Assembly: GCA_019915015.1 (NCBI GenBank)
Contig: JAHBBC010000011.1
Span: forward strand, 1,659,025-1,723,024
Direction of reading: 5' to 3'
DNA length: 64,000 nt
Origin: Auriscalpium vulgare
Lineage: Eukaryota; Basidiomycota; Agaricomycetes; Russulales; Auriscalpiaceae
This document shows, piece by piece, positions 17,391 to 55,700 of this stretch (position 1 is the stretch's first letter; the number at the start of each line of letters is the position of its first letter). A program made the translations under genes and the position numbers. A model generated the notes under the pieces. It worked only from the letters and a program-made list of their open reading frames with translations, did no database searches and was not told the origin of the DNA.

Positions 17391-20300
17391 CTAATCCACC
17401 TCCCACCGCACATTCACCAGCATACCCGGCACCTCCTCACGCAGGGCCTGCAAGAATGCCTCGTCCACGATGCACTCCAACAGATCGAGCTCCTTCAGCG
17501 GGTATCCAGCGCGCGCGCGCTCTGCGAGACCGCGCAGGAGCACGGCCGCCACATGCACTATCTCGTCATCCGGCGGCCCCGCCTTGATGTCCACGCCTGA
17601 AATAACAAGCGTAGAGAGCGCGGGAAGAAAGCCCGCGGGGCCATCAAGTGCAGCGCAGAATGGCGCGGCCGCAGTGCCGTCGACCGTGACGCTCCGCAGC
17701 GCCTGCCCGCTCGCGCGCCGCAGAACGTCCGGCCACGCAGGGTCCCACCCGCCGCACCCCACGGCCAGCTCTTCGAGGCGCTCCAGAGGGAGGGACTTCA
17801 GCGCACTGGGAACGACGTCCCACTCGGAATACTCTTCCTCCGTATCATGCGCGAATTGCACCGCCAAAGACGGCGCGGGTGCTCCTCCTGTACCGCCAAT
17901 ACGCCACACAGTCACAACAACACCGGCGTCGTCCGCGTCGCTGGTGGTTGGCATTATGTGCAGGCGGGAGAGGGGCGCGGCGCGGGCATCGATGCATGCA
18001 ATCACTGCTGAAAAGAGTCCTGCGAGCTCCGCCTTCGTGAGGTCGAAGCGCTCTTCATAGTGGAGGGCGACTTCTGCGGGCAGCGCGAGGTGTGCAAAGG
18101 CGAGGTACGCGTCTTCAATCCTTGTGTCCGTCCCGGACGGACACACACAGCGCAGGGCCCGCTGACAGCAATTGCGCGTGCAGTGGGCGTCCAGGACGCC
18201 CACACCGCGCGCCAGCCTGCGCAGCATGCTCGGCAGCATCTTTCCTTGACAGAGACACACAGCGCAGGGCCCGCAGACAGCAATTGCGCGTGCAGTGGGC
18301 GTCCAGGACGCGCACGCCGTGCGCCACCCTCCGCAGCGTGTTGCCTGTGCTCGGCAGTGTCCGTCCCGGACGGACACACACAGCGCAGGCGCGTGCAGTG
18401 GGCGTCCAGGACGCCCACACCGCGCGCCAGCCTGCGCAGCATGCTCTGCAGCATCTTTCCTTGACAGAGACACACAGCGCAGGGCCCGCAGACAGCAATT
18501 GGGCGTGCAGTGGGCGTCCAGGACGCCCACACCGCGCGCCAGCCTGCGCAGCATGCTCGGCAGCATCTTTCCTTGACAGAGACACACAGCGCAGGGCCCG
18601 CAGACAGCAATTGCGCGTGCAGTGGGCGTCCAGGATGCCCACACCGCGCGCCAGCCTGCGCAGCATGCTCTGCAGCATCTTTCCTTGACAGAGACACACA
18701 GCGCAGGGCCCGCAGACAGCAATTGCGCGTGCAGTGGGCGTCCAGGACGCCCACACCGCGCGCCAGCCTGCGCAGCATGCTCGGCAGCATCTTTCCTTGA
18801 CAGAGACACACAGCGCAGGGCCCGCAGACAGCAATTGCGCGTGCAGTGGGCGTCCAGGACGCGCACGCCGTGCGCCACCCTCCATAGCGTGTTGCCTGTG
18901 CTCGGCAGTGTCCGTCCCGGACGGACACACACAGCGCAGGGCCCGCAGACAGCAATTGCGCGTGCAGTGGGCGTCCAGGACGCCCACACCGCGCGCCAGC
19001 CTGCGCAGCATGCTCTGCAGCATCTTTCCTTGACAGAGACACACAGCGCAGGGCACGCAGACAGCAATTGCGCGTGCAGTGGGCGTCCAGGACGCCCACA
19101 CCGCGCGCCAGCCTGCGCAGCATGCTCTGCAGCATCTTTCCTTGACAGAGACAGCGCAGGGCCCGCAGACAGCAATTGCGCGTGCAGTGGGCGTCCAGGA
19201 CGCCCACACCGCGCGCCAGCCTGCGCAGCATGCTCTGCAGCATCTTTCCTTGACAGAGACACACAGCGCAGGGCCCGCAGACAGCAATTGCGCGTGCAGT
19301 GGGCGTCCAGGACGCCCACACCGCGCGCCAGCCTGCGCAGCATGCTCTGCAGCATCTTTCCTTGACAGAGACACACAGCGCAGGGCCCGCAGACAGCAAT
19401 TGCGCGTGCAGTGGGCGTCCAGGACGCCCACACCGCGCGCCAGCCTGCGCAGCATGCTCTGCAGCATCTTTCCTTGACAGAGACAGCGCAGGGCCCGCAG
19501 ACAGCAATTGCGCGTGCAGTGGGCGTCCAGGACGCCCACACCGCGCGCCAGCCTGCGCAGCATGCTCGGCAGCATCTTTCCTTGACACACACAGCGCAGG
19601 GCCCGCAGACAGCAATTGCGCGTGCAGTGGGCGTCCAGGACGCGCACGCCGTGCGCCAGCCTCCGTAGCGTGTTGCCTGTGCTCTGCAGTGTCCGTCCCG
19701 GACGGACACGCACAGCGCAGGGCCCGCAGACAGCAATTGCGCGTGCAGTGGGCGTCCAGGACGCCCACACCGCGCGCCAGCCTGCGCAGCATGCTCGGCA
19801 GCATCTTTCCTTGACAGAGACAGCGCAGGGCCCGCAGACAGCAATTGCGCGTGCAGTGGGCGTCCAGGACGCGCACGCCGTGCGCCACCCTCCGCAGCGT
19901 GTTGCCTGTGCTCGGCAGTGTCCGTTCCGGACGGACACACCCAGCGCAGGGCCCGCAGACAGCAATTGCGCGTGCAGTGGGCGTCCAGGACGCCCACACC
20001 GCGCGCCAGCCTGCGCAGCATGCTCTGCAGCATCTTTCCTTGACAGAGACACACAGCGCAGGGCCCGCAGACAGCAATTGCGCGTGCAGTGGGCGTCCAG
20101 GACGCCCACACCGCGCGCCAGCCTGCGCAGCATGCTCGGCAGCATCTTTCCTTGACAGAGACACACAGCGCAGGGCCCGCAGACAGCAATTGCGCGTGCA
20201 GTGGGCGTCCAGGACGCCCACACCGCGCGCCAGCCTGCGCAGCATGCTCGGCAGCATCTTTCCTTGACACACACAGCGCAGGGCCCGCTGACAGCAATTG

Positions 20301-20955
20301 CGCGTGCAGTGGGCGTCCAGGCCGCCCACACCGCGCGCCAGCCTGCGCAGCATGCTCTGCAGCATCTTTCCTTGACAGAGACACACAGCGCAGGGCCCGC
20401 AGACAGCAATTGCGCGTGCAGTGGGCGTCCAGGACGCCCACGCCGTGCGCCAGCCTCCGTAGCGTGTTGCCTGTGCTCTGCAGTGTCCGTCCCGGACGGA
20501 CACACACAGCGCAGGGCCCGCAGACAGCAATTGCGCGTGCAGTGGGCGTCCAGGACGCGCACGCCGTGCGCCACCCTCCGCAGCGTTGTTGCCTGTGCTC
20601 GGCAGTGTCCGTCCCGGACGGACACACACAGCGCAGGGCCCGCTGACAGCAATTGCGCGTGCAGTGGGCGTCCAGGACGCTCACACTGCGATAGGTACGC
20701 CGCGGTCCCCGACAGGAGCAGCTGAGATGCTAACGCTGCCGCTGTAGGGTATCAAGCTGCGCAGGTGCGCGTCGTCTTCACCCTCCCGTGAAAGCTCGCG
20801 CGGCAGCGTTTCCAATGGACTACGTTGGCCCCGCCCACCTCGCGTACACCGCCAACTCAACCGGGTCTGAGTTAAAGACTCGGCACAATATGCTTGAGTC
20901 CTTGTGATCAGAGCTGTAGGATATCGAGGGCAGGCCTGTGAGGTCTGAAGATGAG
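17391..20955 (-). pseudogene. F-box/LRR-type gene remnant with a giant minisatellite intron
   Basis: The last exon (17391-18120) encodes about 243 residues (IEDAYLAFAHLALPAEVALH and on, ending NVRWEVD), the leucine-rich tail common to F-box proteins of these fungi. An upstream exon lies at 20685 to about 20950 and ends GDRGVPIA plus a split codon. The two join in phase across 18121-20684 (donor GTGAGC, acceptor ACAAG), so the minisatellite is read as an intron. Within the upstream exon the frame shifts once near 20830: the frame with DPVELAVYARWAGPT hits TAG, while SPLETLPRELSREGEDDAHL continues in another. No F-box start is visible further right. It is best called a pseudogene. Confidence 0.6.
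18121..20690. repeat. 112 bp minisatellite containing palindromes
   Basis: About 2.57 kb of tandem repeats. The basic unit is 112 bp (for example starts at 18510, 18622, 18734). It includes CAGCAATTGCGCGTGCAGTG, GCGTCCAGGACGCC and CAGCATGCTCTGCAGCATC, themselves partly palindromic. About every third to fifth unit is a variant that carries the palindrome TGTCCGTCCCGGACGGACA: 18123-18145, 18358-18376, 18909-18927, 19690-19708, 19919-19937 (one mismatch), 20484-20502 and 20606-20624. Because 112 is not a multiple of three and the unit lacks reverse-strand stops, all three reverse frames stay open; this does not indicate a protein. Confidence 0.9.
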
Positions 20956-23711: not shown

Positions 23712-24500
23712 ACACCCCATTGCACTGATCTGTCTGGCAAGGAAGGACCACCTGTGACGCCCTTGCAAACACTTGCAAATGCCAGTGAAGGCCACGCGTC
23801 GGGCAAGAGGGGGGCACAGATGCAGCGACTGTATTCGGTGGGAGCTACGTGCGGCGCCCGCTGCGGAGGCCGTCTCATCCACTCCCCGAGGACGAGGACT
23901 CGTCAACGCCGGCAAACCCACCGCCCCAGACGTCGTCATGCCAGCCATTCCACCCCGAGCCGCCTCAGGCGTCCCCTTCCCCGCCATTGCCCACCCCCGA
24001 GACGCCCCAGCCATTCCGCCTCCAGACAGCAGCGATCGCGTTGCGGACCATCTGGTCGGTGACGCGTGGAGGCCCCGCAGGGGCCCTCAGTGGCCCACCA
24101 AATACTCCCCTCTCGCTCATGCCCCGCTTCTTCCGCAGCAATGCCGCCCGGACAGGATCCCACACAATCCCGCCGTCCTTCCAGACACATCCGGAGGCTG
24201 GCGCGCCCCTGCTCCACGCTGTGAGCGATCTGCGACGGGCGAGTGCTCATAGGACCCACCATCTTATGGCCGTCTCCTCTCGCTGCTTCAGCTTGCGAGC
24301 CTCTCGCTTCCAACTGGGCTCGGTCCTGTTCAAGCGCATCGGATGCTGGTGTGCAGGGTGCTTGGTGGTGGAGGCTGCAGCGGTGGTGGACGCGGTACGA
24401 GAGGCGGACTGGCGCAAGCTCGCAGACTCCTTCCCACGCCGGCTCGTTCTCGCCCAGGCGGCCCGAGACAACCGACTAATTATAAGACAACCGCAAGGGC
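23712..24500. other. No clear gene; long Pro/Ser-rich forward frame
   Basis: A forward frame is open from 23849 to 24562 (about 237 codons). It is Pro/Ser-rich at first (PEDEDSSTPANPPPQ) and ends within the palindrome-bearing repeat at 24546. Overlapping frames on the other strand are also open, as expected in GC-rich DNA. I recognise no domain and do not call a gene with confidence. Confidence 0.3.
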
Positions 24501-24860
24501 CCGTCGCGGACGGACGGCCGCGGACGCCGCGCGGCACTCCTACGCAATCACGTGACCTGTAAGAGGTGGCCTGGGAGTGTCCGTCCTGGCCGGACGCGCA
24601 CACTCCCAACCCTTGATAGCGACCTTGACAAATTCTGAAATCCTCGAAGCCCTGTTTACGCGCCATATCAGGTAGTTTGTTATCATGCCGGTGGAGCGCA
24701 GCCAAAATTATGTGGGCAGACGGTCGCGCGACGCGACGTCGGACGCGGCTCTCCTGCAAAATCACGTGACTTGCATGGGGCGGTCTGCGAGCGTCCGTCC
24801 CGGACGGACGCGCCCATCCCCTCAGAGCGACCTCAACAACCCGTCCCATGTCGCATTCCC
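24501..24860. repeat. Palindrome-bearing repeat, locus 24.5 kb
   Basis: Two related units each begin with a CACGTG-type palindrome (TCACGTGAC at 24548-24556 and again near 24763-24771) and contain the GTCCGTCC palindrome (degenerate at 24578-24596, perfect CGTCCGTCC-C-GGACGGACG at 24792-24810). Each continues into an AGCGACCT motif. A short decayed palindrome (CCGTC-GCG-GACGG) sits at 24501-24513. The same unit, including a GGTGGAGCGCAGCCAAA segment, occurs in inverse orientation at about 39380-39760. Confidence 0.7.
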
Positions 24861-25106
24861 AAACCCCCACCTTAGCAACAACCACCGCTTTCGAGGTGTT
24901 CCAATAGCGAATTATGGTGGCGGAATGCCTTAATTTGCCCTGCCTGGTAGGTGTCTCACTATTGTGATGTTTCAGGCCCGTTTACATTCCTCTCTGCGCT
25001 ATGTTTATATCTCGCCGCGCGCTGCGCGGTCCGTCCTCGACGTTCATCCTGCATGACATGATGGTGCGATAACACTTGTTTGAAACAGGACTTAAACAAC
25101 TTGTAC

Positions 25107-25549
25107 CTAAGCCACCTTCACCTTAACAACCGTACAGCTCCACCTCTTTATCTTTAGCCCTGGAGCTCCCTCCTCCCACGCCGCGAGTATCCCTTTTGTC
25201 ATCCTGCAACACGAAAGCATGACCAAAAATGCAGCCCGATCCCGACTCGTCCTCCACATCTTGACATCCTGGGGGAATGTCGCAGTCGGGGAGTTCATGA
25301 AGTTCACCTCGTCAATATTCAACGTGTGCAGGCTGGGCAGGTACGACCCATCCACAGGCGCCTTACTCATCGCCTGACAGAAGGCCAGCGCGTTGTGTCC
25401 GTCGACCGTCACCTCGTACAGGTGGTGGGCCGATGCCAGCCATTCCCTCCACACATCTTCATCGGCCGACGTGTCGCCTACTGAGTAAAGCAGCCGCTCT
25501 ATCTTGAGCCCGGACATCGCAGGGACAGCAGCCTGGGCAAGATGACGAC
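25107..25549 (-). pseudogene. F-box gene, C-terminal half (3' of element A)
   Basis: The frame starts directly at the edge of the 12.5 kb retrotransposon and encodes the C-terminal 146 codons of an F-box/LRR-type protein (HLAQAAVPAMSGLKIERLLYS onwards, ending VKVKVA). It is the continuation of the N-terminal part at 38067-38997. Removing the element and one copy of the 5 bp target duplication gives an uninterrupted frame. Its closest relative in the window is the gene at 47571-48940, which shares DGSYLPSL, ATFPQDV and APGLKI in the same places. Confidence 0.85.
25545..25549. repeat. Target-site duplication of element A (left)
   Basis: ACGAC directly precedes the 5' LTR and is repeated right after the 3' LTR at 38067-38071. 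Five base pairs is the usual length for Ty3/gypsy integration. Confidence 0.9.
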
Positions 25550-26162
25550 TGTGACGGGAGAAAGAGGCCCGGAGGTAACGCGGGCAGAAGGTCATCAGTC
25601 TCGACGCAGGACGCTATTAGATTACTGTACAATAGATTAGATTAGTCGGAGTTTGAAGATGTCTGTAAGTATATAAGTCGTGTACTGACAGCATCGTGCA
25701 TCATCAATACAACGTGTTTCTTTTTCTTTCTCTTTTTCTCGTCTCTTCGCCTTCCTCAATTCTCTTCAAGTCTCCCTCAGGCAAAGTAGTTGCTAGTCGA
25801 CTACGAGAATCGACGACGCGACGACGCGACGAGTCACGAGCGCGTGAGGCTTCTCGAGCGCCAACAGCGCGCCCACAGAACCACACACGCGCGACGCACT
25901 TGGGCCGTCGGCGCCTCGCCCTTCTCTCTCTCGAGCCAGTCACCAGGAGGAAGCCTCCTAACGACTGAGCTCCCGCTCGGGCCTTGCGCCTACGGGCGTG
26001 ATCACATCTCCTCGCCCTCCACTCCTTCCGTGCTACGGAGGAGGTCTGTCAACACGGGGAAGCCCCGTACCGACAGGACAACACACCTTTGGTTCCTCCC
26101 TGGGCTCGTCTCTCGCCCGTCCTACGCCCGAATCTCGAGACTCACCTATCAGAGGCGTCTCA
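25550..26162 (+). repeat. 5' LTR of element A
   Basis: It starts TGTGACGGGAGAAAG, ends GAGGCGTCTCA and is matched by 37454-38066. It contains a CT-rich tract around 25715-25785 and a GACGACGCGACGACGCGACG stretch. Open frames inside both LTRs (90 and 79 codons) are shared only because the sequence is. Confidence 0.93.
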
Positions 26163-26185
26163 AAGGTGGACATATCCGGAACGTA
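26163..26185 (+). other. Candidate primer-binding site of element A
   Basis: Four bases after the LTR comes TGGACATATCCGGAACG (26167-26183). It starts with the TGG expected for pairing with a tRNA CCA end. I could not assign the tRNA, and a self-priming mechanism cannot be excluded. Confidence 0.4.
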
Positions 26186-26234
26186 GGACACGAAGACCGG
26201 TCCTGAGGAACTTTCTTCGCAAGTCGGGAACAGT

Positions 26235-38066: not shown

Positions 38067-38997
38067 ACGACTCAGCGCGAGGCGCCAAGGGACAGTGATG
38101 TAGCAGGCCTTAACCTCGTCACCGTGCGTGCGCGCGATTATATGGATCCTCAGGTGGCCCTCCCATTTTTCAATACAAGCATCGTAGGCAATGTCTTCGA
38201 CATTCTCCTGTAAAAGATGTTCAACCCTTCATTGAATGAATTGCAAAATATAACCTGAACCCCACCTGTCCCATTCCAGTGGGGGGATTCACCATGAGCC
38301 GGATGAACGCCTCCTCTGATATCGCTGGGTAGGCCTCTGGCCAATCGTTGGGGAACCACATATAGGCACGTTGACAGTTGGATGGGTGATGGATGTGTGA
38401 GATGAGCGTTGTAGCCTCCCCCATGGACTCCCCCCAAATAGTCAGGTTCTCCAGTTTCGGCAAGGTGATGGTTGGTTGGGTGCCTCCGGGCAGAAGGTGA
38501 ATTCGCACTGCAAGGTTCGTCAGGCCAGCGAAGGCGCCGCAGAACCGCAGTACCTCCGGCATGCGCAAGTCCACCGCGTACACCGGATGGTTGGAGATTG
38601 CAAGTGACTTCAATGGCCCGGCAAGAACCTCCTTCGAAAGATCACTCCACAAGGCGCGAGTATCATCAGTCACAAAGAAATGGAGGCGTTCCAAGCGGTC
38701 CTGGCAAGCCAAGATTGTTTTGACCATCTGCTTCGATAATGTGCGGCGCAGTTTGACTGGCCGCACGACCAGGGTGATTGGTGCGCGACGCGTCCTCTCG
38801 AGGTACTTCGCCACAGCGCCCGGGCCATGTCGGGTGTAGATTGTGACCCACAGTGCAGGCAAATTGACGGCAACGTGATTCCAATCCTGGCACACCAGCA
38901 AGACGACCGTCCAACTTCCACTCCGTGAATGTTTCACGATTGCCTTCAAGTGTAGGAATATTTCTCCCAATGTTTCTGCTGCCAGACGTGAGGGCAT
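38067..38997 (-). pseudogene. F-box gene, N-terminal half (5' of element A)
   Basis: Exon 1 (38266-38997, 244 codons) starts MPSRLAAETLGEIFLHLKAI and includes VVLLVCQDWNHVAVNLPALW, a typical F-box-like start. A 58 bp intron (38208-38265, phase 0) leads to exon 2 (ENVEDIAYDACIEKWEGHLR and on), which is cut at 38067 by element A. Joined to 25107-25544, the pre-insertion protein would be 436 residues, against 437 for the paralogue at 47571-48940, and the intron is in the same place in both (after PPTGMGQ here, PPTQMAM there). The gene is therefore a recent insertion mutant. Confidence 0.88.
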
Positions 38998-39199: not shown

Positions 39200-39780
39200 A
39201 TGTTGGCCCTGCTGCAGGGCTATGACCGACCCTGACGCAGGCTTGTCACCGACCCTGTCGCAGTGACCCTGTGTCAGGGTACCATGCCCAACCCTGACAC
39301 CAGGTTGCGTCCGTCCCGGACGGACACGTGCGCGCCTGCCCACAAAGTGGTTCACGCCAGCCGAGCAACATGACAACTTCATCGCTGGCAGCTGGTTCAG
39401 GCGGGACACCTCATGCAGGTCACGTGATTGGCCAGGAGAGGCACGAGCCGTCTGTACGGACACCCTGAGGATTGGACACTTCTTGCCCACCGGCGTGAAA
39501 CAGGCTTCCCCTGATGTGGCGCGTAAACACTGCTGTCGTAGTCGAGCATCGAACAATATGCCAAGGTCGCTATCAAGGGGTGGAGCTGTCCGTCCTGGAC
39601 GGACGCTCCCTGACCACCCCATACAGGTCACGTGTTCGCACAGGGGGTGCCGCGAACCGTCCGTCCGCGACGGACAAATAGGGTCGATGCGGCGGACACC
39701 TGTTGCCTACATAGTTTGGCTGCGCTCCACTGGCATGAAAACAAGCTACCGGGGGTGTGAAAAGTGCCGTCGTACTTAAT
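39200..39780. repeat. Palindrome-bearing repeats upstream of the interrupted F-box gene
   Basis: Palindromes at 39309-39325, 39588-39604 and 39659-39675 (the last with a 3-base centre, GTCCGTC-CGC-GACGGAC). CACGTG boxes at about 39420 and 39628 precede units that match 24546-24860 in inverse orientation, including AGGTCGCTATCAAGGGG and TTTGGCTGCGCTCCACTGGC. Around the 39588 copy the whole unit can fold into a longer imperfect hairpin (GGGGTGG...CCACCCC). At 39210-39300 a separate CCCTG(N)CGCAGG-like word repeats four times. Confidence 0.7.
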
Positions 39781-40651: not shown

Positions 40652-40820
40652 GGTGGTTGGGAGAAAGAGCAGCGTGGTCCACAAATCGCTTTGGGTTCCT
40701 TATGTACCTCCATCTATTATTGTAAGGTTGTCGCAGCGGAGTCAGAAACTGAGTGCAAAGCAGATATCTTGCTCTGAACTTAGTTTGTCACCCCTCTTTG
40801 TTCTATCCACCATAACATTA

Positions 40821-41838
40821 ATGCAGCCATACGTCTGGCAGGATGATCAGCTCGAGGCCCTTGCGAGGAGACGCATTGTATTGACCAGCAGGACAGCGGT
40901 GAGGCAATTTCTACGTTCTCGACTGGCAGAACGTCCTGACGAGTCGATGTGTAGAACTGGCAATCGACTGTGGTGTTCGCAGACGGACATGAGGGCGAGG
41001 AGTATGTGATCAAGGTCGTTGACCGCGACTCAGAGGAGCTATCCATCCTGCGCATCCTCACCCACCTGCCTCACCGTCATAACCACACAATCCCTGCCGA
41101 GATATTGGAGTGTGAATCTACAGCGATAATTGTCATGCCTCGAATGTCGACGCAAGACCGAGTCATGTGGCTCTGGCGCGGACCCCAGTGGAGTTTTTTG
41201 AATGTCATTGAACAACTAATTGAGGTATTTATTGGCAGACCAAATATATAATATCTGACATGGAAAACTGATCATTCACCTGTAGGGAGTGCGCTTCATG
41301 CATGACAACAAGATAGCTTATATTGTGGGCCTACTTTTGGAAACAACTGGTTGCCAGGGATTCACTAATATTTCTCCTCACCAGGACATTGCACCCTCCA
41401 ATCTTGTGTTTGACAAGGAAGGGAACAAGGTCTTCTTCATTGATTTCGGGTCATCTAGATGGTTGCCAAACTACCAACTGGGAGAGACTGCGAATGTGGA
41501 TACAGTTGTGGCACATTACCACCCCAAAGACAAGGAGAACGCTGGTGACCCGTTTCAGTTCGATGTATTCGGCTTGGGACACGCGATATCCACAATGTTG
41601 GAGGTCAGTCCTTTTCTTCGGCGCTTGGTCCAGCGGTGAGGTAACAATGTTGGCACAGATTTCAGGGAAGACAGGTCCAGATATCACTTGCCTGAACGCA
41701 TTTGGCCATGCTCTGTCTGTGGAGGCAGCCCACATACGTCCCAGTATACGGGCAACTGTTTGGGGGTTCAGAGCTCTGAAAGTCTGGTTAACTGCCACTG
41801 CATGGTTGCCATCTGTCGCCACAGAGAGTACATCGTAA
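40821..41838 (+). CDS. Compact protein-kinase-like protein, 261 aa, 5 exons
   Basis: Exons 40821-40898, 40955-41224, 41286-41324, 41385-41603 and 41659-41838 are all joined in phase 0 by introns of 56, 61, 60 and 55 bp. The chain has the beta-3 lysine context (EEYVIKVVD) and a C-lobe with IEGVRFMHDNKIAYIDIAPSN, FIDFGSS (DFG kept) and a late HIRPSIRATVWGFRALK that fits the end of a kinase domain. No glycine-rich loop is seen; the N-lobe starts almost at the lysine. The catalytic HRD reads YID, keeping only the Asp. It belongs to the expanded basidiomycete kinase-like families. Activity is doubtful, so a pseudokinase is possible. The last exon's acceptor is the least certain. Confidence 0.68.
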
Positions 41839-42200: not shown

Positions 42201-42530
42201 CAGCTGCGGTGCCACCCACGCGTGTCCGTCCGGGACGGACAGATTGAGGGGCACCGCTATGCGTGGGGACAGCTTAGGCCCCGCGCTCGGCCTGTCTGTC
42301 CAGGTGCGGTGCCACCCACGCGTGTCCGTCCGGGACGGACAGATTGAGGGGCACCGCTGTGCGTGGGGACAGCTTAGGCCCCGCGCTCGGCCTGTCCGTC
42401 CAGGTGCGGTGTCACCCACGCGTGTCCGTCCGGGACGGACAGATTGAGGGGCACCGCTATGCGTGAGGACAGCTTAGGCCCCGCGCGCGCTGTCCGTCCT
42501 GGACGGACAGGCCGAGTGGGTTACCAGCTG
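42201..42530. repeat. 100 bp tandem repeat with palindromes
   Basis: Three units with an exact 100 bp period (palindromes TGTCCGTCC-G-GGACGGACA at 42223-42241, 42323-42341 and 42423-42441), plus a partial fourth ending in a T-centred palindrome at 42491-42509. In the full units the matching position near the end of the unit is decayed (CTGTCTGTCCAGG, CTGTCCGTCCAGG), so each unit originally had two palindromes. The array ends about 230 bp before the TATA box of the next F-box gene. Confidence 0.92.
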
Positions 42531-42829: not shown

Positions 42830-44335
42830 ATGCCCCTACGACGCATGTGGTACATATGGCTCACAGCGTGCTCCCACAGAAACCCCGTCATGGTCCTCCA
42901 GAACCAGCCCGTTGAGGTTGTTGAGAAGATATTCCGGCTTGTCGCCGATGAATACGGACACTCGATGAGAGAGTTGCTCGCGTTGAGTGGCCTGAACCGC
43001 TATTTGCGCGAGGTGGCATTACACCAGGGCGACCTGTGGACACATATCGACATGGGGTATGGGCCGTGGTGGACCACAGAGTTGTTTGAACGCTCAAAAC
43101 ATGCTTTGGTCGACTTCATCGCCCGCCGCCAGCTCGACCATGCAACCTGTGCACTCCTCATCAAGCACCAGGGTTGTCTACGACATGTTGATCTTCGACA
43201 AGCTGGTGACACCTACTCACTGCTGCGGCGGATGACTGGCCCGGCGGACGCGCTGGTGGGCATCTTGCTTGCTACACCGGTCGGGCGCCATGAATGGCCC
43301 ACCGAATTTCTCTCCCAGGGATGCCATAGCCTGACCAACATCTCACTTGGTCACCGAGTCAGCTATGGATTCATCGACCGCAACAACTATTCAGTCCCCA
43401 GAGCGCTGCAGCCCCTTCGGACATTCGCTTCATTGCAGCACCTGGAGTTCAACGTTGACTTCCACATGGGTGTGGAAGTACAAGCCGTGACATTACCCCA
43501 CCTCCGGGTCCTGCGTCTCACAGGCCGTGGCCCTCCGGATGGGATGCTGCAGTTCCTATCCATGGTGATAATCCCCCCCACCTGTCAACGGAAGATCACG
43601 CTCAGCAATGGTCACATTGATCCGTCCGAGATGGGAGGGATTGCAGCTGCCCTAGCATTTCCGGAGAGCAGCGTATGTTTGGATTTTCTGCCTATGAGCC
43701 CACATTATTCATTGTCATGCCACCCACAGCCTACTCTTCAGACACCTACGACAGTCTCTGTGTCCGTGCGGAACAATGACACAAGCTGCTGTCTCCACAT
43801 CACGAATGATACAGAAGATGCGACAATAGTCGTCTCCGTTTATGAGGACCGTATGGCGTGGCTGTCCGCTTGCCTGCGGCTGCTCAGAAGGCGAAACATA
43901 CAGGCGTTTTGGTACCTTGGTGCCACCATGAATCCGGATTTTTCAGTCTGGAGGGAAGTCATGCGTCCCCTACACCAGCTCACTGTGGTCACCCTCAACC
44001 AGGGTGGGGCCGAAGGGTGGATGAGAGCCTGCGTGGGTGCTCAGGGCGGGCAGTTCCTCCCGCAACTCGCTCGGGTCACCATCCACGACTGTGAACAGGT
44101 CAGCCTCTTCCACTCCGGGGGTTTTCTAGCGGAAGCGAGGTGGGGCAGGGCGGAACGCACGGTGATATTTCAGAGATGTGTGCTACAGGACCAGGCACTT
44201 TTGCTTTGGTCCACCTGGGCGACCGCTGGTACGATGGTGAAGTTGGATTGCTGCCACTGGGTTGACCGGTACCATGATGCAGTGGCAGCCCCTACGCCCC
44301 CTGCTGGGCGCTTTGAACTTAGTGATGAGATCTGA
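42830..44335 (+). CDS. F-box domain protein, 481-501 aa, single exon
   Basis: One uninterrupted frame. The F-box-like motif (VLQNQPVEVVEKIFRLVADE, then LSGLNRYLREVALHQGDLWTH) begins right after the ATG at 42890. The upstream ATG at 42830 adds 20 hydrophobic/basic residues and is closer to the TATA box, so either start is possible. The rest is leucine-rich. It is paralogous to the gene at 45275: both have HQGxLR followed by LLRxxxGPA and a C-terminal block GxxLxxARWGxxER-like. No sign of decay. Confidence 0.8.
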   Translation: MPLRRMWYIWLTACSHRNPVMVLQNQPVEVVEKIFRLVADEYGHSMRELLALSGLNRYLREVALHQGDLWTHIDMGYGPWWTTELFERSKHALVDFIARRQLDHATCALLIKHQGCLRHVDLRQAGDTYSLLRRMTGPADALVGILLATPVGRHEWPTEFLSQGCHSLTNISLGHRVSYGFIDRNNYSVPRALQPLRTFASLQHLEFNVDFHMGVEVQAVTLPHLRVLRLTGRGPPDGMLQFLSMVIIPPTCQRKITLSNGHIDPSEMGGIAAALAFPESSVCLDFLPMSPHYSLSCHPQPTLQTPTTVSVSVRNNDTSCCLHITNDTEDATIVVSVYEDRMAWLSACLRLLRRRNIQAFWYLGATMNPDFSVWREVMRPLHQLTVVTLNQGGAEGWMRACVGAQGGQFLPQLARVTIHDCEQVSLFHSGGFLAEARWGRAERTVIFQRCVLQDQALLLWSTWATAGTMVKLDCCHWVDRYHDAVAAPTPPAGRFELSDEI

Positions 44336-44639: not shown

Positions 44640-44990
44640 GTCCGTCGCAGACGGACGTACAGGCAGGGGGTCCTTGGGCAACTTCCTTACAATTCATGCC
44701 CGCCGTCCGTCAGGGGCTGCGCCGCCGTGGCACTATCGAGGTGCGCGCCAGCACTCGCCGTACGAGGACGTGTTGCATCCGTCCGGGACGGACAGTGTGG
44801 GCCCCGCGAAGTGCGCGCCAATTGACTGTGCCAGGACGCGTATCGAGGTGCGCGCCAGCACTCGCCGTGCGAGGACGCGTTGCGTCCGTCCGGGACGGAC
44901 AATGCGGGCCCCGCGATGCTGTCGAAGTGCGCGCCAATTGACTGTGCCAGGACGCGGGGCGTCCGTCCAGGACGGACACGCGCACTGATC
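44640..44990. repeat. Palindrome-bearing repeats upstream of the 45.3 kb F-box gene
   Basis: Four palindromes: 44640-44656 (3-base centre GCA), 44778-44792, 44884-44900 and 44961-44977. The last three sit in a loose tandem repeat of about 105 bp containing GTGCGCGCCAGCACTCGCCG and GCGCGCCAATTGACTGTGCC. The body of the unit has no obvious relation to the 100 bp unit at 42.2 kb. Confidence 0.85.
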
Positions 44991-45274: not shown

Positions 45275-46732
45275 ATGTTGCACCCAACAATCAACGACCT
45301 GGCCCCCGAGATACTAAGCACCGTGTTCCGGCATCTTGCGTGCGATCGGGGCGACACGTTGTCCCTGTTGCTTACAGTGAGTAGCGTCAGCCAACGGTGG
45401 CGTCGGATAGCGATAGACGATGGAGAACTTTGGACCCGCATCAATCAGATCGACGGCGGCGAGGAATGGGCGATCGAGTTTTTTGCGCGCTCAGGGGCCC
45501 GTTCGGTCGACTTTACCGGCATGGATTGCCACATGAACCCACGCCTCACAGCGAAGATAGTTGAGCACCAAGGGCGCCTGCGGGGCCTCCAATTGGATTG
45601 GAGTCCGGAGAGGTACGGCGATGGTACCCCGCTGTTGCGCCAACTCCAAGGACCTGCACCGCTGCTGGAGTCCCTTACCATGGCTTGCTGGACAGAGCGA
45701 CCGCTGTTCCAGGCGGTACGACGTTTGCCCAGCCGATTCCTGTCACGAGGAACCCCCCTCCTCCGAAGCGTGACCTGGTATGACGTAGTGTGGCCGGAGT
45801 CTGTCCCCGCCTCCGGCCAGTTGGTCTCATTCCGATTGCGATCCGGAGGGGAGAACCCCCTGACTCGCTCACCAGTAACCCACGACTGGGAAGCCATGCG
45901 ACTTTTGCGGGGATTCAGCCACTTGGAGAATCTCGACATCGAACTCCACCTCGCAGAGACCGCCACGTTCGAGGCAAGCGATCCAGTCATATTCCCTCGC
46001 CTTTCTACTCTTCAAATATACGCGCCGAGATTGCAAAATTGGTCGCCCCGTCGGACCATCGTTCGGGTCATGGGCCTCATGCACTTTCCCGTGACATGCA
46101 AGCGATCATTGATTCTCGAGGGCGACAACGCTGAGGTGAACACTCTGGTCTCAATGGTGTTCCCACGCCACATGATTGGGGTATGTCCATGGAGTACCTT
46201 GAGCATGCGGGACGCTGACATACAGCAGATTCCCACGCGGTCACCCATGACTGTCCACTGCTCAGAAGGTAGCGGCCGCCGCATCATGAAATTGGGAAAC
46301 GACTGCGAGGAATGCATCATCGATTTTCCCGCCGAGGGTGGCTCATGGTCATCCCTCTGTATGCGCCTGCTACCAGACATGAACGTATCAACCCTTCACT
46401 ATCTCTGGCGACGGCGCAAGAAGGGGATTATTTTGGAAGGTTTGGGCTGGTACCCATGCTTTTCCTCGCTGGTACTTGTCACCATTGGGGACTTGGATCT
46501 ACGCAACCGCAGATGGACCCGGGAGGTGTTGGAGTGGCTGAAGTCGGACAAATGGGGAGCACGAGAGCGAAGGGTCATTTTCAAACGCTGCATGGTAAGC
46601 GGCAAATATGTCGAGGAGTGGGCCAGACTTGCGGCGGATGGGGTCAAGCAGTTGAAGTTTGTAGATTGTTATTTCCGTGACCCGCCAGCGTCTGAGAGTT
46701 CCCGTTTGGTAGTCGATAGTACTCGAGCGTAG
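45275..46732 (+). CDS. F-box domain protein, 485 aa, single exon
   Basis: A single open frame from ATG 45275 to TAG 46732. The N-terminal F-box-like region reads INDLAPEILSTVFRHLACDR, then SVSQRWRRIAIDDGELWTRI, followed by leucine-rich sequence to the end. It is paralogous to the neighbour at 42830-44335. Gene order, strand, single-exon structure and palindrome-plus-TATA promoter layout are the same, so the pair probably arose by local duplication. Confidence 0.82.
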   Translation: MLHPTINDLAPEILSTVFRHLACDRGDTLSLLLTVSSVSQRWRRIAIDDGELWTRINQIDGGEEWAIEFFARSGARSVDFTGMDCHMNPRLTAKIVEHQGRLRGLQLDWSPERYGDGTPLLRQLQGPAPLLESLTMACWTERPLFQAVRRLPSRFLSRGTPLLRSVTWYDVVWPESVPASGQLVSFRLRSGGENPLTRSPVTHDWEAMRLLRGFSHLENLDIELHLAETATFEASDPVIFPRLSTLQIYAPRLQNWSPRRTIVRVMGLMHFPVTCKRSLILEGDNAEVNTLVSMVFPRHMIGVCPWSTLSMRDADIQQIPTRSPMTVHCSEGSGRRIMKLGNDCEECIIDFPAEGGSWSSLCMRLLPDMNVSTLHYLWRRRKKGIILEGLGWYPCFSSLVLVTIGDLDLRNRRWTREVLEWLKSDKWGARERRVIFKRCMVSGKYVEEWARLAADGVKQLKFVDCYFRDPPASESSRLVVDSTRA

Positions 46733-46860: not shown

Positions 46861-47400
46861 GCGATTACATCGGCGAATATGGGCCATGCACGCACGCGTC
46901 CGTCAGGGACGGACATAACTGGCTCTCAGGGGCGATTTGAGATCGTTGACCGCATCGATCGTCGGGCGATGCCCGCAAATATGGGACATGCGCGCACGCG
47001 TCCGTCAGGGACGGACAAAACCGTCCCTGAAGGGCGAGTGAGGTTGTTAACCGCATCACGCATGTGTGATGGTTGCCGGGTGATGCCTGCGAATATGGGC
47101 CGTGCGCGCACGCGTCCGTCAGGGACGGACAAAACCGTCAATCGCGGGCGACCTGAGGTTGTTAACCGCATCACGCATGTGTGCGTCAGGGTCGCCGGGT
47201 GATGCTTGCGAATATGGGCCGTGCGCGCACGCGTCCGTCAGACAAAACCGTCAATCGCGGGCGACCTGAGGTTGTTAACCGCATCACGCATGTGTGCGTC
47301 AGGGTCGCCGGGTGATGCGTGCGAATATTGGCCGTGCGCGCACGCGTCCGTCAGGGACGGACAAAACCGTCAATCGCGGGCGGCCTGAGGTTGTTAACCG
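46861..47400. repeat. 101-119 bp tandem repeat with palindromes
   Basis: Five units, with the palindrome GTCCGTC-AGG-GACGGAC at 46899-46915, 47000-47016, 47114-47130 and 47346-47362. In the unit at 47233 an internal deletion has removed one arm. The unit body (GCGAATATGGGCC, AACCGCATCACGCATGTGTG, ACCGTCAATCGCGGGCG) differs from the repeats at other loci; only the palindrome and the CGCACGCGT just before it are shared. The last copy ends 209 bp before the next ATG. Confidence 0.9.
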
Positions 47401-47570: not shown

Positions 47571-48940
47571 ATGCAGTCACGTCTGGCGACAGAAACACTT
47601 GGCCACATATTTCTAATTTTAAAGGCGGAGGTGGAAGAATCGGAAGCAACAATGTGCAGTTGGACGGCGGTCTTGCTGGTGTGCAGGCGATGGCACGACG
47701 CTGGTCTCGCCTTCAAGGCTCTGTGGGCGAAAGTCTACACTCGGCGTGGGCTGGCCTCGGTCTCGAGCCACCTTGCCAGGAGTGGTTGCGCATTGATCAC
47801 TATGTTTGTAGAGCCCCCTCGCGGAGAAAGAGCACTGGCGCCTGAGATGGTTCAACTTATCCGATCCGCCCGGGAACGCCTGGAGGTCCTCACGTTTTGG
47901 GTTGATAACGCTCCCGATACGCTCGAGTTGTGGAGTCGCCTTTCTATGGAAGCTGTTGCGGTGCTGCTGAAGTCACTCATACTTCGAGGGGGGTTCTATC
48001 CGGGTTTGGAGTTGTCGGACGCACTGCGGTTCTCCGGTGCGTTTGCGGGTCTGACAACCCTTCAAGTCACAGTTCAACTTTCCCTTGACATCGAGGGAAC
48101 CATGCCGATCATCACTCTCGCGAGACTGGAGGTACTGGAGATTACCTGGCAGGACTCAGGCTCTCTCCGGATGGTTTCTATGCTCATCTCGCACGTCCAA
48201 CATCCCTCCACCTGCCAGCGCACGATCTTCGTTAAGCATCACCAGGTGCCGGACCATGAGGCGGCCGAAGGGTTTCTGGCAGTGTTAGCTAAACCCCCCA
48301 CACAGATGGCAATGGTGAGGACAGATCCAGTTTTGTTGCGATGTGATCAAGAGTTTAACGCCGGTTCCAGGAGACGGACCAAGAGATCTCCCACCAATTG
48401 ACCATAGACCGTGAGAGTGGGCGCTGGTGGAAGATCGCAATCAGCGCTCAACGGGCCGGCCACAAACCCTCCATCATCGTTGTCGCGCCGTTCTCGAACC
48501 GTGGGATGGTTTTACGCCTTGCCCACGCCGCTGTCGTTGCCACGTCCGCGCTGAAAATGGTTGACCTGGTCTACAACATCGGCGATCCAACAGCCGCGCC
48601 GTGGACGTGGAGGTCATTGATGGCATCAGCCCACGTCCTGCGTACAGTGGAAGTCTTTGGCCAAAGCGCGATTACTTTCTGCGAGGCGATGGGCGAAGCG
48701 CCCTTGGACGGGTCCTATCTGCCCAGCTTGACAAAGTTGGTCATTGTGCAAGTCGATTTCATCATGTACACCAAGGCGACGTTCCCTCAGGATGTCGACA
48801 GGTGGAGGAAGAGTCGGACGCGGGATACGTTTTCCGTCGAGGCTTTACGCTGCAAGATGACGAGGGGGACATTCGCGGATTGGGAGGTTAACGCTCCAGG
48901 GCTAAAGATAGGGCTGGAGGCCGTGGAATACGGGTATTGA
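47571..48940 (+). CDS. F-box domain protein, 437 aa, 2 exons
   Basis: Exon 1 (47571-48314) starts MQSRLATETLGHIFLILKAE and includes AVLLVCRRWHDAGLAFKALW. A 56 bp phase-0 intron (48315-48370, GTGAGG donor) is required because exon 1's frame ends at a stop soon after, while exon 2 (48371-48940) continues ETDQEISHQLTIDRESGRWW and ends EAVEYGY. The interrupted gene at 38067-38997 plus 25107-25544 has the same intron position and nearly the same length, so this is its intact paralogue. It is leucine-rich after the F-box. Inferred role: SCF substrate adaptor. Confidence 0.83.
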
Positions 48941-49777
48941 GGGAAAAGGTGGTGTAGGTATTTGTGGTTAAGGGTCTATTTGAAGACACGGTTCACGCAG
49001 CATTGAAGCGGACCGCTCAGGTTGCCCCCCTGGAGTGATTTGCGATGAACATTTTGATGCGACACCTGCGTGACCTGAGTGGAGCGCTGTGCCTGCGGAC
49101 AGCGTAGATGGTGGGCGCGGGCGGTCCGTCCTGGACGGACACGTCGGTCCTGGGGTTGACTCGCCGGTGACGAAGGTACGCCCCAGCGGTACAGCCCCGT
49201 GTGTCCGTCCTGGACGGACGCCCCGCAGGGTCGTATGGACAGAAGAGGCCACGCGGGTCAGATATACCTCCCGTGGAACGCCGTCTGTTTTGCCTCAGCA
49301 TGAGGACGGTCCCCGCGGTGTCCGTCCGGGACGGATGCCATGAGCATTCCAGGCCGTGTTAAAATGCTCAGCCCATCACAAATTGTGGAAGGAGTGGTCA
49401 GTCGTCATTGCCCTGGGAGGGAACGCCCGTCGGGACACTAAGCCCAGGGAAAATGTTTATCGCAGCTGTGCGAAGCCTTTCAAGGGATTGTTGGAGGCGG
49501 CATCGACGCGCATACTGCTCTCCTTCCGAACGTACACCTCAGGACCATTTGGGCCTGATGACCGCGACACCCGCACGAGTAGGGAAATCACTGAGCCACA
49601 TCTGCTCGGCCGGTTCCGGGTCATATTCGCGCTCGGCATCCCCGGACCCGCTTTGGCTTTGACACGCGTGCCCGTCCGCATTGGTGCTGCCGTGAGTCAT
49701 GTGCTCCTAAATTCGATCGGCCAGGCAGTATATAACCAGCACGAGTTGGGTCTCAGTCGCCCTCTCTTTTCCCCACC
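48941..49777. other. Intergenic: palindromes and helicase promoter
   Basis: Three palindromes: 49124-49140, 49203-49219 and 49321-49335, spaced about 80-118 bp within a poorly conserved repeat. A TATA box (TATATAAC, 49729-49736) lies 42 bp before the helicase ATG. A forward open frame at 49356-49979 overlaps the helicase start in another frame and is not supported. Confidence 0.65.
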
Positions 49778-52700
49778 ATGCCCACTTTGTCGTATATGCT
49801 CGCCACTGTCCTTCTGCCAACGCACCTTTTCGTCGATAGCTACGAGTGGACTGAGTACACGGGCGGCGATATTCCGCCCTGGGCCACAGAGGCAAGGCCT
49901 GAAACTGTGCCCAACCTCTCGCAGTCACAACTGGATACTGCGTGTGCGTTTGCCAAGCATGTCAGGGGCGACCACCTGAAACCCCGAAGGCTGCTCACGG
50001 TCCAAGAGACGAAAGAGAGGGCGCGCGACGAGGAGTACAGAGAAGGCCGGGCGATTGCACACACGTGGCACGCCAATGTTTGGAAGAAGTGGAAGGTGCC
50101 GCAGAGCGTCAGGCAGTTTCTAGAGGAGGTCGAAGAGGTCAATCCCTATGAATATATGGTTGCGATGCAAAAATCTGAGGTGAGTTACCCACTGTCCATG
50201 ATAGTTTCTCACTCAAGGCGCCATAGTTCCCGTCTTACACCGAGCTCTCGGTGAGCTACGAGAACATCGCCAGACACCTGTTTGGCGATGAAGCATTCCT
50301 TATCACCAAGTCGGGCGCGGCCCTCCTGACCCCCGAGCTACGCAACGTTGTCGGTTGCTTGATCAACAATGTCTGGGATGGATGGCGGACAAGCCATACA
50401 CGCATGAAAAAGACTCGAACGAAGTACGAGCAAGACCTGACTGTGCGGTGGACTGGTATGTAGGACATGTGTAACTGCTCGTCTGCTCATGCTCACCCCT
50501 CATAGGCATATTCGAGGGGAACGCGAATGGCGACGGGGTCCGTAAGTACTTGGCCACGGCCAACAAACTCATGGCCATCGTCACCAAGTGCCAGGACGGT
50601 GAGGCAGTGACGATCTTGGAGGCTAGGAAGCAGCAAGTGCGTGACATTTTGGCGGGGCTCCAGCCCGATGAGCCGGACAAGACTGCAAGTAAGTGCTAGA
50701 GCTATGGAGCAAGCAGACTGTCTGACGACAACATGCAGAGCTCCCGAAATTGATGCGCGAGGCTTTGGAAAAGATAGCGAGTGAATCAGGCAGCGGGGAC
50801 CTCATCCCCTGGGCGCGTCACCTCAGTCGAGACGAAGATCCCGACGAAGAGCGAACGGACCACCCAGTGCCAATGTCGGCCGATGCAGCCATGGGCGACT
50901 TGAGCAACGCGGAGTGGACCACCGGCGTCGATCAATACAAGGACTACACCGTTGAACAACTCTGGCAGGCGCTCGGGATCACGACGGGCCAATTGCCGTT
51001 CTTCCATCCGAAGGTGGACCTGGAAGGCAGCAAGGTACCATCGCTGCATCGGGCTTGGTTCGAGGAGGAGAGCAATGGCGTGCCCTTGGTGCCGCACTGG
51101 CATCAACTTGTTGGCATCTGCAGAATGCTCGATTGTGCATTCGAGGGTAAACCTGTCCTCCTCATGGACGACGTGGGTCTTGGAAAGACCCTGCAAGTCC
51201 TCGGTTTCTTTGCGATGCTCGCGTGGTGTAGGGATGAGCGCCGGCAAGGCCGACCTTACCCAGGTCAATTTGGTGAGTGGTGCGACATCTTAGGCGCAGC
51301 CGGTGGTTCCTTATCCGCAGCAGCAGGAAAGAGGTTCGGCGGCCCAAACCATCCGACCGGACGCGTCCCCAACGCTCCGTTTCTGATGGTGGTTCCGCCT
51401 GGCCTCGTCGGTCAGGTGGCTCATGAGGTCGCGAGGTTCCTTCGCGCCGACTCGATTCCAGTCCAGCCCATCACCGGGGGCATCCTGAGGCGCTTAGGCG
51501 CTCTGGACGAGATCAAAAAGAGGACAGGGAACCGCTACAATAACACCATCCTGCTGATGTCGACTACGGTATTGTCAACTTGCTCAACCTCAGCGAGCTG
51601 AGCTGACACCCAATAGGCCGCTATGTCCGACTTCCGTCACGTCATGGTTCCAGACCCTAGGAAAAAGGCGTTCGCACCGCGCGAGATGCCGAACATCGCC
51701 AACAAGCTGCCTCACACCGTCTTCGGCGAAACCTTCGCGGCGACTGCGCTCGATGAAGCCCACGTTCTGAGGAAGGTTAATTTCATGTACATGACAGGTC
51801 GGACGCTTCGAGCCAAGTCGGGAGTCTTCGTTGCCATGACCGCGACACCCGTCCAAACACACCCAAAGGTGACTGTAATCTAGACTGCCGATATCACGCA
51901 TGCTCTGACCTCAACCGCAGGATCTTTGCAACCTTGGCCGCGCACTTGGGCTTGCAGCGTTCGCCGACGCATGTGAAGACCGCATCAATCAATGGCAGAA
52001 GACCGTCAATTCGGGGACTGCCCTGGACCGGAAAGAAGCGAAGAAACAAGGCCCACCCAAGGAGGTACTCACGAGGACGATCGCGGGCCAGACCGGCGTT
52101 GCCTACGGCAAGCACCACAGGGAGAAGCTTGGACAAGTCGTTGAAGAAATTCGTGTTGCGTTCGAAGGCTGTGTGATACGTCGCACGGGTAAGTCGCTCG
52201 GATCGGACGGAAAGCCCATCTCTGGTCTCTACCCGTATCGCGAACACCTGGTGGTTCAAAAGCCTCACCCATGGGAGATGGAAGTGCTGGAGCAAATCGC
52301 AGTCGATCAACTCGAGACTGATGCCGGAATCAGGAACCCGGCCAAACTTGTGAGTGTGAATCGTAGTTACTCATTTCCCGTCTCGGACGGACGTACTGTG
52401 ACGGCTTGTACTGGTGGGGAGCCCCGGGACACAAACGAGGGCCCCATGGCAATCTGCCGCCGAGGACGGACAGCGAGGCGCACGCGCCGCTCGCCGCAGG
52501 AGGCTGCAACGCCTCCACGGTGGAGGGCGCCGTGTGTGACGTCTGCACCGTGCATGGAGGCAGCTCCTCAGTTGTCCGTCCCAGACGGACAGCGCGCGCG
52601 GCGTGCTCGATGGACAGTCATGAGGGTGTCCGTCCCGGACGGACGCTGCGTGTGCGCTATACGCCGTGTACTCTGCGTAGGCCACCAGTCCCTGTAGTAT

Positions 52701-55700
52701 AATAAGAAATAAGACCGATGACCATCGGTGTGCTAGTTTCGAGGATTGACCGATAAGGATATCATTTTAAATGGGTCGGCGTAGGAGATATTTAAAATGA
52801 TTCCGACGGTAAAAATGTTGTGATCCTATTGGCTACGGAAAAATCGGCTAAAATCTGATAAAATGTTGAAAAAATTCAGTCCGTGTCGGTTCCCACGGGT
52901 ACGGGACGGAAATAAATCATTTGAAATGATTACCAGTACTACGAATAGCTGCCCGTAGGGCTTGGAAAAATAGGGAATAATACGGAGAAATCGGAATATA
53001 TTTGGGGGCGTCGGTGTCTAGCCGATATCTCTTCCCACGCGTCAACATATTCCCACGGTCCCAAGAAATGCTATTTTTAATCATTTGCGCTGGTATATAA
53101 TCCTTTCTGTAGGCCCTGGGAAAACCCATTGACAACCATACAGTGCATGTATGATGTAGACTTACATGTAGTCCATATATACAAACTGCTTGAAGCCCAT
53201 TCTATTCAAATGCGAGCTGGACGGAACCACAAACCAGGAAAGTATCTGATACAGAATATCCTGCAGGCATGATATTCTTTACCTAAGCAACCAAACTTTG
53301 TACACAGATAGCTCTCAACACTTCAAGACTTATAGTATTTTTTCCATGACCCAAGCCCCCCCTCAATTCTTCTCAAACACAATTTCTTTAGTATTTATGC
53401 TGTTGAAATAGTATTGATATACATATCTGGACTACTTTTGAATACATTTGGCATGGTCTGACTGCTGTAGATGCCCAGTCAAAGTGCAACTAGTCTCTAT
53501 CATTACTTTCTAGATTTACCATGCTGAAGCCATTGGTAGACTGCACATATATTCATTATTTATATATTTTGGCCCAAAAGAATGGAGTGGGCCTAATACT
53601 ATTGCTTTCCAGGATTTGGTCAATATAATCCCCAAATATTTCGGGGCACTCTCATACCATGCCCAACCCACTGCTATAAGTATTGGAATCCTACAAAGAT
53701 TTGGTAGATGGTACTGTACTTCCACTCTGACATACCCTTTAAGATATAGAATGGTCCCAGGCTTGTACATGTATATATGAATGGCCTTATTCTCAGTTAT
53801 CATAGGCTTATGCTCAACCAAGCTGATATCACAAGTCAAGATTCAGTGGAAAAAGAAAGGACCATTTGCTATTGCACATGCATCTGGGACAAGGACTGTA
53901 GTATGGGCTGTATCAGAGTAGAAGTACAGTACTATCTACCAACTCCTTGAAGGAATTCGATACTTATAGCAGTGGGTGGGGCATGGTCTGTGAGTACTCT
54001 GAAATATTTGGGAATTTCATTGACCAAGTCTTGGGGAGCTATTAAGCACACTCCATTCTTTTGGGCCAAAACATATAAATATTGAATATATATATTGAAT
54101 GCAGCTTACCTGAGGCTTCAAAGGAGAAGATGGTAAATGGGGAAAGAAGTGGTAGACAGTGATGTTATTTTCACTGTGCATCTATGGCAGTCAGAACATG
54201 CCAAATGTATTCATAAGGAGTCCAAATATGTATATCAATGTTATTTCAATAGCATAGATACTAAAGAAATTGTGTTTGAGAAGAATTGAGGGGGGGCTTG
54301 GGTCATGGAAAAAATACTATAAGTCTTGAAGTGTTGAGAGCTATCTGTGTACAAAGTTTGGTTGCTTAGGTAAAGAAGATCATGCCTGCAGGATATTCTG
54401 TATCAGATACTTTCCTGGTTTGTGGTTCAGTCCAGCTCGCATTTGAATAGAATGGGCTTCAAGCAGTTTGTATATATGGACTACATGTAAGTCTACATCA
54501 TACATGCACTGTATGGTTGTCAATGGGTTTTCCCAGGGCCTACAGAAAGGATTATATACCAGCGCAAATGATTAAAAATAGCATTTCTTGGGACCGTGGG
54601 AATATGTTGACGCGTGGGAAGAGATATCGGCTAGACACCGACGCCCCCAAATATATTCCGATTTCTCCGTATTATTCCCTATTTTTCCAAGCCCTACGGG
54701 CAGCTATTCGTAGTACTGGTAATCATTTTAAATGATTTATTTCCGTCCCGTACCCGTGGGAACCGACGCGGACTGAATTTTTTCAACATTTTATCAGATT
54801 TTAGCCAATTTTTCCGTAGCCAATAGGATCACAACATTTTTACCGTCGGAATCATTTTAAATATCTCCTACGCCGACCCATTTAAAATGATATCCTTATC
54901 GGTCAATCTTCGAAACTAGCACACCGATAGTCATCGGTGTTATTTCTTATTACCCTACAGGGACGCCTGCGTAGGCGGTATTGGGCTCCCCTCCAGGGTG
55001 TCCGTCTCGGGCGGACATTGCATGTGTGCGGCATGCGCCATATCGTCTGCGAAGGCATTGGGCTCACCCCCAGGGTGTCCGTCTCGGACGGACATTTCAT
55101 GTGTGTGGCATACACCATATCGTCTGCGAAGGCGGCACTGGGCTCACCCCCAGGGTGTCCGTCTCGGACGGACATTTCATGTGTGCGGCACCCTCTGAGC
55201 CGTCGCTTTCCGCCCTCCCTGCAGCCGGGTGCTTACCATTTATTGATCCCACAGGATTTCTATCTCGACCTTCGCATTGCGAGCACGCACCCAGATTGTC
55301 TTAACGTAGGACCCCTCCCTGCCACCATGGCAGAGTACGACAGGCGCCCGTCGCGTAAGCTGGACAACGTGGCGGAGATATTGAACCACCATCTTCAGGA
55401 CAAGCACGTCGTAGCTGGGCTTCACTATGAGCAACCAGCGGGTATGCGAGTCATTGTCCATCGTCGTTGTCCGTCGCTGACATTTCTGTAGCCGATGGCG
55501 ATGCTATATCACCGCCAACCGTTGAAGACCTACGGGGAGACGAGCCTGTCACGGACGTGAGCCCGGACAAAGTCGTCATTTACTCGTTCTTCATCTTCAA
55601 CCATCCGCGTCTGCAGAATGTGAGCTTCCGACGATTCCTCTGTTGTCATTGTCCTCATCACCGAGCTCAGCAACTGAAACTTCTCAACAAATCCTCCTCT

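Follow-up and report, generated by a model that had tools for sequence, protein, structure and literature searches.

A clustered palindrome in a Y'-like subtelomeric block of Auriscalpium vulgare, a candidate recognition site for a dimeric protein

Introduction

The Y' elements of Saccharomyces cerevisiae are subtelomeric, carry helicase genes, occur in tandem copies with telomere-like tracts between them, and are nearly identical across chromosome ends. In Ustilago maydis, the available portion of one report describes telomere-linked helicases (TLH), which are RecQ-like and lie beside telomeres in the UTASa and UTASb regions (PMC10532341). In Plasmodium falciparum, the SPE2 motif consists of two imperfect 6-bp repeats 4 bp apart and is bound by the ApiAP2 protein PfSIP2, as shown by experiment; the available portion of that report describes hundreds of copies, upstream of subtelomeric gene families and in TARE2/3 arrays, nearly confined to chromosome ends (PMC2829057). 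Here we describe a palindrome, GTCCGTC-N3-GACGGAC, that recurs through a 64,000-nucleotide stretch of the Auriscalpium vulgare genome (hereafter the window), which is the final 64 kb of contig C11 (JAHBBC010000011.1) in a 51.6-Mb assembly of 96 contigs, designated C1, C2, and so on.

We read this palindrome as a subtelomere-specific element of a Y'-like block, most likely the recognition site for a symmetric (dimeric) DNA-binding protein, and hold this reading with roughly even confidence. Like Y' elements, the block adjoins telomere repeats, has tandem copies with interstitial telomere-like tracts, carries helicase genes, and is nearly identical between ends; unlike them, it is about ten times larger, includes F-box-family genes, and has helicases of the SNF2 type. 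It shares with TLH, as far as the source text describes them, helicase genes beside telomeres in a basidiomycete, but it was not filed with them because its helicases are SNF2-type and those of TLH are given there as RecQ-like. As with SPE2, in the account available, the palindrome precedes subtelomeric genes and is also found within telomere-associated repeats, with three off-block sites among those listed; it differs from SPE2 as described there in being a palindrome instead of a bipartite repeat, in occurring also in helicase introns, in belonging to a fungus, and in having a putative binder only.

A symmetric palindrome recurs in clusters

The exact 17-mer occurred 27 times in the window, or 33 times with one mismatch allowed, spanning 18126-55173, whereas no palindrome at zero or one mismatch arose in 30 first-order Markov simulations of the window (means per window, 0.37 at two mismatches and 4.4 at three). 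The original prediction, which had reported about 33 copies, was accurate on number and position. It had described centres of one or three bases; most copies do have 8-bp arms around a single central base, but where a centre of three had been supposed, the 17-mer is unchanged except for its inner pair. A search in which 7-bp arms enclosed a single base had the wrong spacing and matched no real site, the N3 centre being correct.

The original prediction overlooked 21 additional sites in a 112-bp satellite at 18.1-20.7 kb that share the core CGTCC-N-GGACG and have outer GG; 15 of these are symmetric, reading GGGCGTCC-N-GGACGCCC. The core is constant, and the two positions that follow it vary jointly on both sides, giving the symmetric outer variants TC/GA (the main form), GG/CC (the satellite), and TT/AA, for which C4 was the sole place among the matches listed (100 of 125).

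The clusters and the genes among them are as follows, in window coordinates; gene models are conceptual throughout.

18124..20690, plus strand: cluster A, the 112-bp satellite at the block's chromosome-side edge, with 6 exact, 1 one-mismatch, and 21 GG-type same-core sites
24499..25045, unstranded: cluster B, with 1 exact palindrome and 3 imperfect ones that have 1, 1, and 2 mismatches
38224..38997, minus strand: first exon or open reading frame of a gene with 44% identity to that at 47571, itself without a Pfam match
39309..39675, unstranded: cluster C, 3 exact, the nearest 311 bp upstream of the 38997 (minus strand) ATG
42224..42508, unstranded: cluster D, 4 exact, 3 of them within tandem units of 100 bp; the 42830 ATG follows after 321 bp
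42830..44335, plus strand: gene with 25% identity to the F-box gene at 45275, itself without a Pfam match
44640..44977, unstranded: cluster E, 3 exact and 1 one-mismatch, 297 bp upstream of the 45275 ATG
45275..46732, plus strand: F-box-like gene, PF12937 above the cut-off
46898..47362, unstranded: cluster F, 4 exact, arranged in tandem units of roughly 113 bp; the 47571 ATG follows after 208 bp
47571..48940, plus strand: paralog of the gene at 38997; its own F-box-like match is weak and falls below the Pfam cut-off
49124..49336, unstranded: cluster G, 2 exact and 1 one-mismatch, the nearest 441 bp upstream of the 49778 ATG
49778..56759, plus strand: helicase 1, SNF2-type, conceptual 12-exon model of 1191 amino acids
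52350..55254, plus strand: clusters H and I in the long helicase 1 intron, 4 exact and one each with 1, 2, and 3 mismatches, interrupted by a 2284-bp insert

The stretches between palindromes are mostly unrelated from cluster to cluster, as had been proposed for the surrounding repeat units, except that clusters B, C, and L are mutually homologous and H is homologous with I. In four of the clusters (A, D, F, and I) the sites coincide with tandem arrays. A pair of exact sites 77-80 bp apart was present in five of eight nonredundant clusters (C, D, and F had no such pair). Simulations reached the observed count in 41, 210, 161, and 105 of 3000 runs at widths of 4, 6, 10, and 15, respectively, and a separate simulation at width 15 did so in 91 of 3000, or in 30 of 3000 when cluster L was retained; because the width window was picked after the fact, this signal is moderate at best. 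An earlier simulation (11 of 12 clusters, 0 of 20,000 runs) had a range set post hoc and included imperfect sites, and it was not relied on. Literature titles on an 80-bp spacing across nucleosome gyres yielded nothing of use. Comparison of cluster D with a plasmid collection gave no matches.

Palindromes lie upstream of block genes and in one intron of each helicase gene

The nearest site lay 208-441 bp before the ATGs at 38997, 42830, 45275, 47571, and 49778, in good agreement with the interval of about 210-445 bp first given for these five genes; at helicase 1 (49778) the site at 441 bp has one mismatch, and the nearest exact site is at 558 bp. Several clusters stand 200-560 bp before a start codon and, in our reading, upstream of TATA-like boxes. 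Contrary to what had been supposed, placement was not restricted to such positions: the sites at 52376-55173 fall in an intron of the helicase 1 gene model, and others lie in the satellite.

In the C2 copy of the block, this helicase 1 intron is 611 bp long with five exact sites. The block's second helicase gene, helicase 2, modelled without its first exons, has a long intron of 352 bp with two exact sites in the same copy. Both palindrome introns are in the same place, between codons and just before DFYLDLR in one helicase and RFYLSIR in the other, and each is the sole long intron of its model, the others measuring 42-61 bp (10 in helicase 1, 47-54 bp; 6 in helicase 2, 42-61 bp). The window copy of the helicase 1 intron also holds the 2284-bp insert (52683-54966), which has inverted arms of about 1 kb (92% alike); it is missing from the C2 copy, and its flanks share a 10-bp overlap of the kind a target duplication leaves.

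Palindromes were retained, upstream or in the matching intron, in both members of all three diverged paralog pairs, namely, 38997/47571 (44% identical), 42830/45275 (25%), and helicases 1 and 2 (36%, 298/827). Both helicases have the Pfam domains SNF2-rel_dom and Helicase_C, and no RecQ-specific Pfam family was found in either. The closest relatives of helicase 1 were proteins of Lactarius, Amylocystis, Suillus, Mycena, Boletus, and Pisolithus (best, 37%); the 45275 protein had one relative in a protein search (7996 candidates scored), from A. vulgare itself and 40% identical. These affinities point to a mushroom-type fungus, possibly of the Russulales.

Nearly all listed copies belong to one amplified block

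Genome-wide, 387 exact palindromes were counted (72 + 163 + 53 + 99, split by centre and preceding base; the class of 99 comprised 108 matches, with nine sites matching both strands, by subtraction). The reversed control gave none, and about 0.4 sites were expected from base composition (hand arithmetic). Places are known for at least 316 of the 387 (100 of the class of 163 and 100 of the 108 matches were listed, and the other two classes in full), the rest being on C27 or later contigs, and all but three of those placed are on contigs carrying copies of one block of about 50 kb, at the start of C1, at the ends of C2, C8, C11, and C13, and on C26, C27, C42, C51, C52, and C56. The three off-block exact sites among those listed are C2:2170, C4:365883, and C9:66618; those on C4 and C9 each have a second, imperfect palindrome about 66-67 bp away. 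The lone off-block pair at C4:365.9 kb has the symmetric TT/AA variant as one member.

The sites were numerous but not dispersed: with nearly all listed sites in block copies, palindrome copy number mostly reflects block amplification. The original prediction had named copies lying in one repeat family with conserved flanks as evidence against a regulatory site; there is indeed one block family, but flanks inside it are mostly unrelated. A transposon family with conserved flanks was rejected as the source because most clusters are unrelated in their flanks, the exceptions being clusters B, C, and L and every cluster when compared between block copies.

The proposal of a general shared promoter site was not supported. 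The F-box protein had 80 genome matches (88 of 224 candidates scored), 61 of them off-block; 58 of these 61 were on C1-C24, contigs for which every exact site is listed, and not one of the 58 lay within 10 kb of such a site. A genome-wide F-box regulon was rejected on this ground, and only three listed exact sites were off-block.

The block is subtelomeric

The block carries two SNF2-type helicase genes and F-box-family genes. Four collinear stretches of the window and C2 align at 98.6-99.8%, and C56 has two block copies in succession at about 52 kb. The 45275 F-box gene is intact at 8 places and split in two pieces on C26. Helicase 1 occurs at 8 main places, identical or nearly so at 7 and split in two on C2, with a further fragment at the C13 end. 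Helicase 2 occurs at 6 places (C2, C26, C42, C51, and C56 twice) and is not in the window; contig C11 stops before its expected place.

The telomere repeat is TTTAGGG; TTAGGG was considered, and none was found. On the right, both C2 and C8 terminate in TTTAGGG repeats; on the left, C9 and C10 open with CCCTAAA repeats. A scan for the beginnings of TTTAGGG tracts matched 19 times, with 12 of the matches on block contigs and the other 7 on C9, C10, C17, C20, and C22. Tracts stand at the outer ends of C2 and C8 (right end) and of C27, C42, C51, and C56 (two), no more than 3.3 kb from the left end; the C26 tract, at 287, has the opposite orientation. Interstitial tracts occur on C13 (two), C42, and C52. 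Those at C13:1657691, C42:58252, and C52:18879 adjoin block boundaries, and a tract between block copies was read at C13:1605300-1605430. No TTTAGGG tract was found at the C11 and C13 ends. TTTAGGG telomeres have been reported, in the portions of the sources available, for the mushroom Stropharia rugosoannulata and for Rhizoctonia cerealis.

On C1, C2, C8, and C13 the block starts, at its chromosome-side edge, with the telomere-like tract GGTTATGGGGCATGGTAGGGTTCAGTAGGGTT, followed by the 112-bp satellite (at C13 the tract alone was read); this tract has 17 genome occurrences within 2 mismatches. On C11 the telomere-like start is absent, and the satellite opens directly at a palindrome, at 18124. 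The chromosome-side flanks of C1, C2, C8, and C11 are mutually unrelated except for 50-57 bp at the boundary. C11 ends not at a telomere but in a copy of a retrotransposon stretch also present at 11.1-16.0 kb. The telomere-linked ends and the tandem copies joined by tracts therefore indicate a subtelomeric block organised like Y' elements.

Weighing of the explanations

A subtelomere-specific DNA-binding protein fits best because the symmetric site occurs in promoters, introns, and boundary repeats and is nearly absent elsewhere, as judged from the listed sites. The putative protein would bind the clustered palindromes in the satellite, before block genes, and in one long intron per helicase, and once bound might govern chromatin state or expression jointly in every copy of the block; the block might, for example, be silent with intact telomeres and active under telomere stress. 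The protein, its dimeric binding, and any regulatory or silencing role are inferred. Fungal Zn2Cys6 regulators recognise everted CCG/CGG sites. The palindrome contains CCG-N7-CGG with a symmetric core, a likeness of letters only. We consider it unlikely that the palindromes form a dedicated chromosome-end code, in which one protein would read those of the satellite, the F-box-family upstream regions, and the helicase introns and switch all block copies together as a telomere-maintenance or chromosome-end identity system.

Whether the palindrome is the conserved part was examined by masking palindromes and comparing flank alignment scores with 100 shuffles in six pairs. The flanks of 42830/45275 and of the two helicase introns scored no better than shuffles, and no 10-mer outside the palindromes was common to at least 3 of 13 regions (B, C, and L counted as one). 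Several results weigh against the protein-site reading. There is some other flank similarity in 2 of the 6 pairs: the 38997/47571 flanks, once masked, reached 26 where no shuffle exceeded 25, and among three unpaired comparisons one exceeded shuffles (the upstream regions of helicase 1 and 42830, 34 against a maximum of 26) and two did not. Between the window and C2, changes affected 2 of 328 palindrome sites and 75 of 18916 elsewhere, which is no less, on small numbers and leaving out the satellite and the 38067-39927 segment (cluster C); in recent block copies there is no detectable extra constraint on the palindrome. No palindromes occur in the divergent intergenic region 40652-40821 (the two gene starts are our reading) or in the stretch of about 2.9 kb that precedes helicase 2, and palindromes also occur in introns and satellite, where promoters are unexpected. 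Tandem duplication, moreover, explains much of the within-cluster count in A, D, F, and I.

If the palindrome had no function, an ancestral palindrome stretch would have spread by gene or block duplication and local tandem duplication and been kept perfect by template switching within quasi-palindromes. Nearly all listed copies being block copies, the tandem units inside clusters, and the unreduced change rate of recent copies agree with this, and quasi-palindrome correction would also yield symmetric variants. We nevertheless regard it as unlikely, since identical arms persist in DNA otherwise diverged beyond recognition, beside paralogs at 25-44% identity, and symmetry correction by itself does not preserve arm sequence. 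A replication or recombination element, such as a fork barrier or an origin-linked or break-prone site aiding amplification, homogenisation, and movement of the block between ends, would account for a block amplified and near-identical across chromosome ends, for tandem arrays that coincide with clusters, for the C11 satellite opening at a palindrome, and for a C8 telomere fused inside cluster C, and intron and satellite placement requires no promoter role. This alternative, too, seems doubtful: the breakpoints on C1, C2, C8, and C13 are at the telomere-like tract and not at the palindrome, and a similar upstream distance at five genes is not predicted by it.

An RNA hairpin acting in transcripts, in untranslated regions or introns, is very improbable. 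Outer arm changes do preserve pairing, and two clusters lie inside a transcribed gene if the gene models hold, but several clusters are upstream of the TATA-like boxes and the satellite has no evident gene. When three 65-base stretches were folded with DNA parameters, one folded better than its shuffles (z, -3.16) and two did not (-0.94 and -0.51), and a hairpin was rejected as a general explanation on these three stretches.

On the preferred reading, a recognition site for a dimeric protein, the cis element shared by satellite, promoters, and helicase introns would be a concrete bait for a protein controlling mushroom chromosome ends and, if the reading is true, an independent parallel to Plasmodium SPE2. 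The block is noteworthy in itself, being Y'-like yet with helicases of the SNF2 type instead of the RecQ type. Among the matches listed, no literature title on fungi or telomeres was found for the letters of the palindrome half-site, and in a search of partial coverage no title listed dealt with this palindrome, with its block, or with an SNF2 helicase at mushroom subtelomeres.

Other elements in and around the block

An inverted repeat of about 460 bp (91%) containing palindromes lies close to each end of the block's gene-bearing portion, at 24744-25204 and at C2:3202.9-3203.4 kb. At the right end of C8, the block gives way directly to fused telomere repeats at the equivalent of window position 39471, between two cluster C palindromes, as in chromosome healing.

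The two copies of the retrotransposon stretch (99.3%) occupy 11132-15958 and 56754-61579, the second extending to the contig end. A long terminal repeat (LTR) retrotransposon at 25550-38067 has two identical 614-bp ends and matches to reverse transcriptase, RNase H, and integrase; the C2 and C8 block copies lack it at this place, and there the flanks overlap by about 6 bp. The start of C1 (1-1797) has, in our reading, a putative reverse-transcriptase-like reading with a 3' TATCC repeat and abuts the 112-bp satellite, and the start of contig C4 (1-160) holds what we take, from its motif, to be a putative fragment of a Penelope-type reverse transcriptase.

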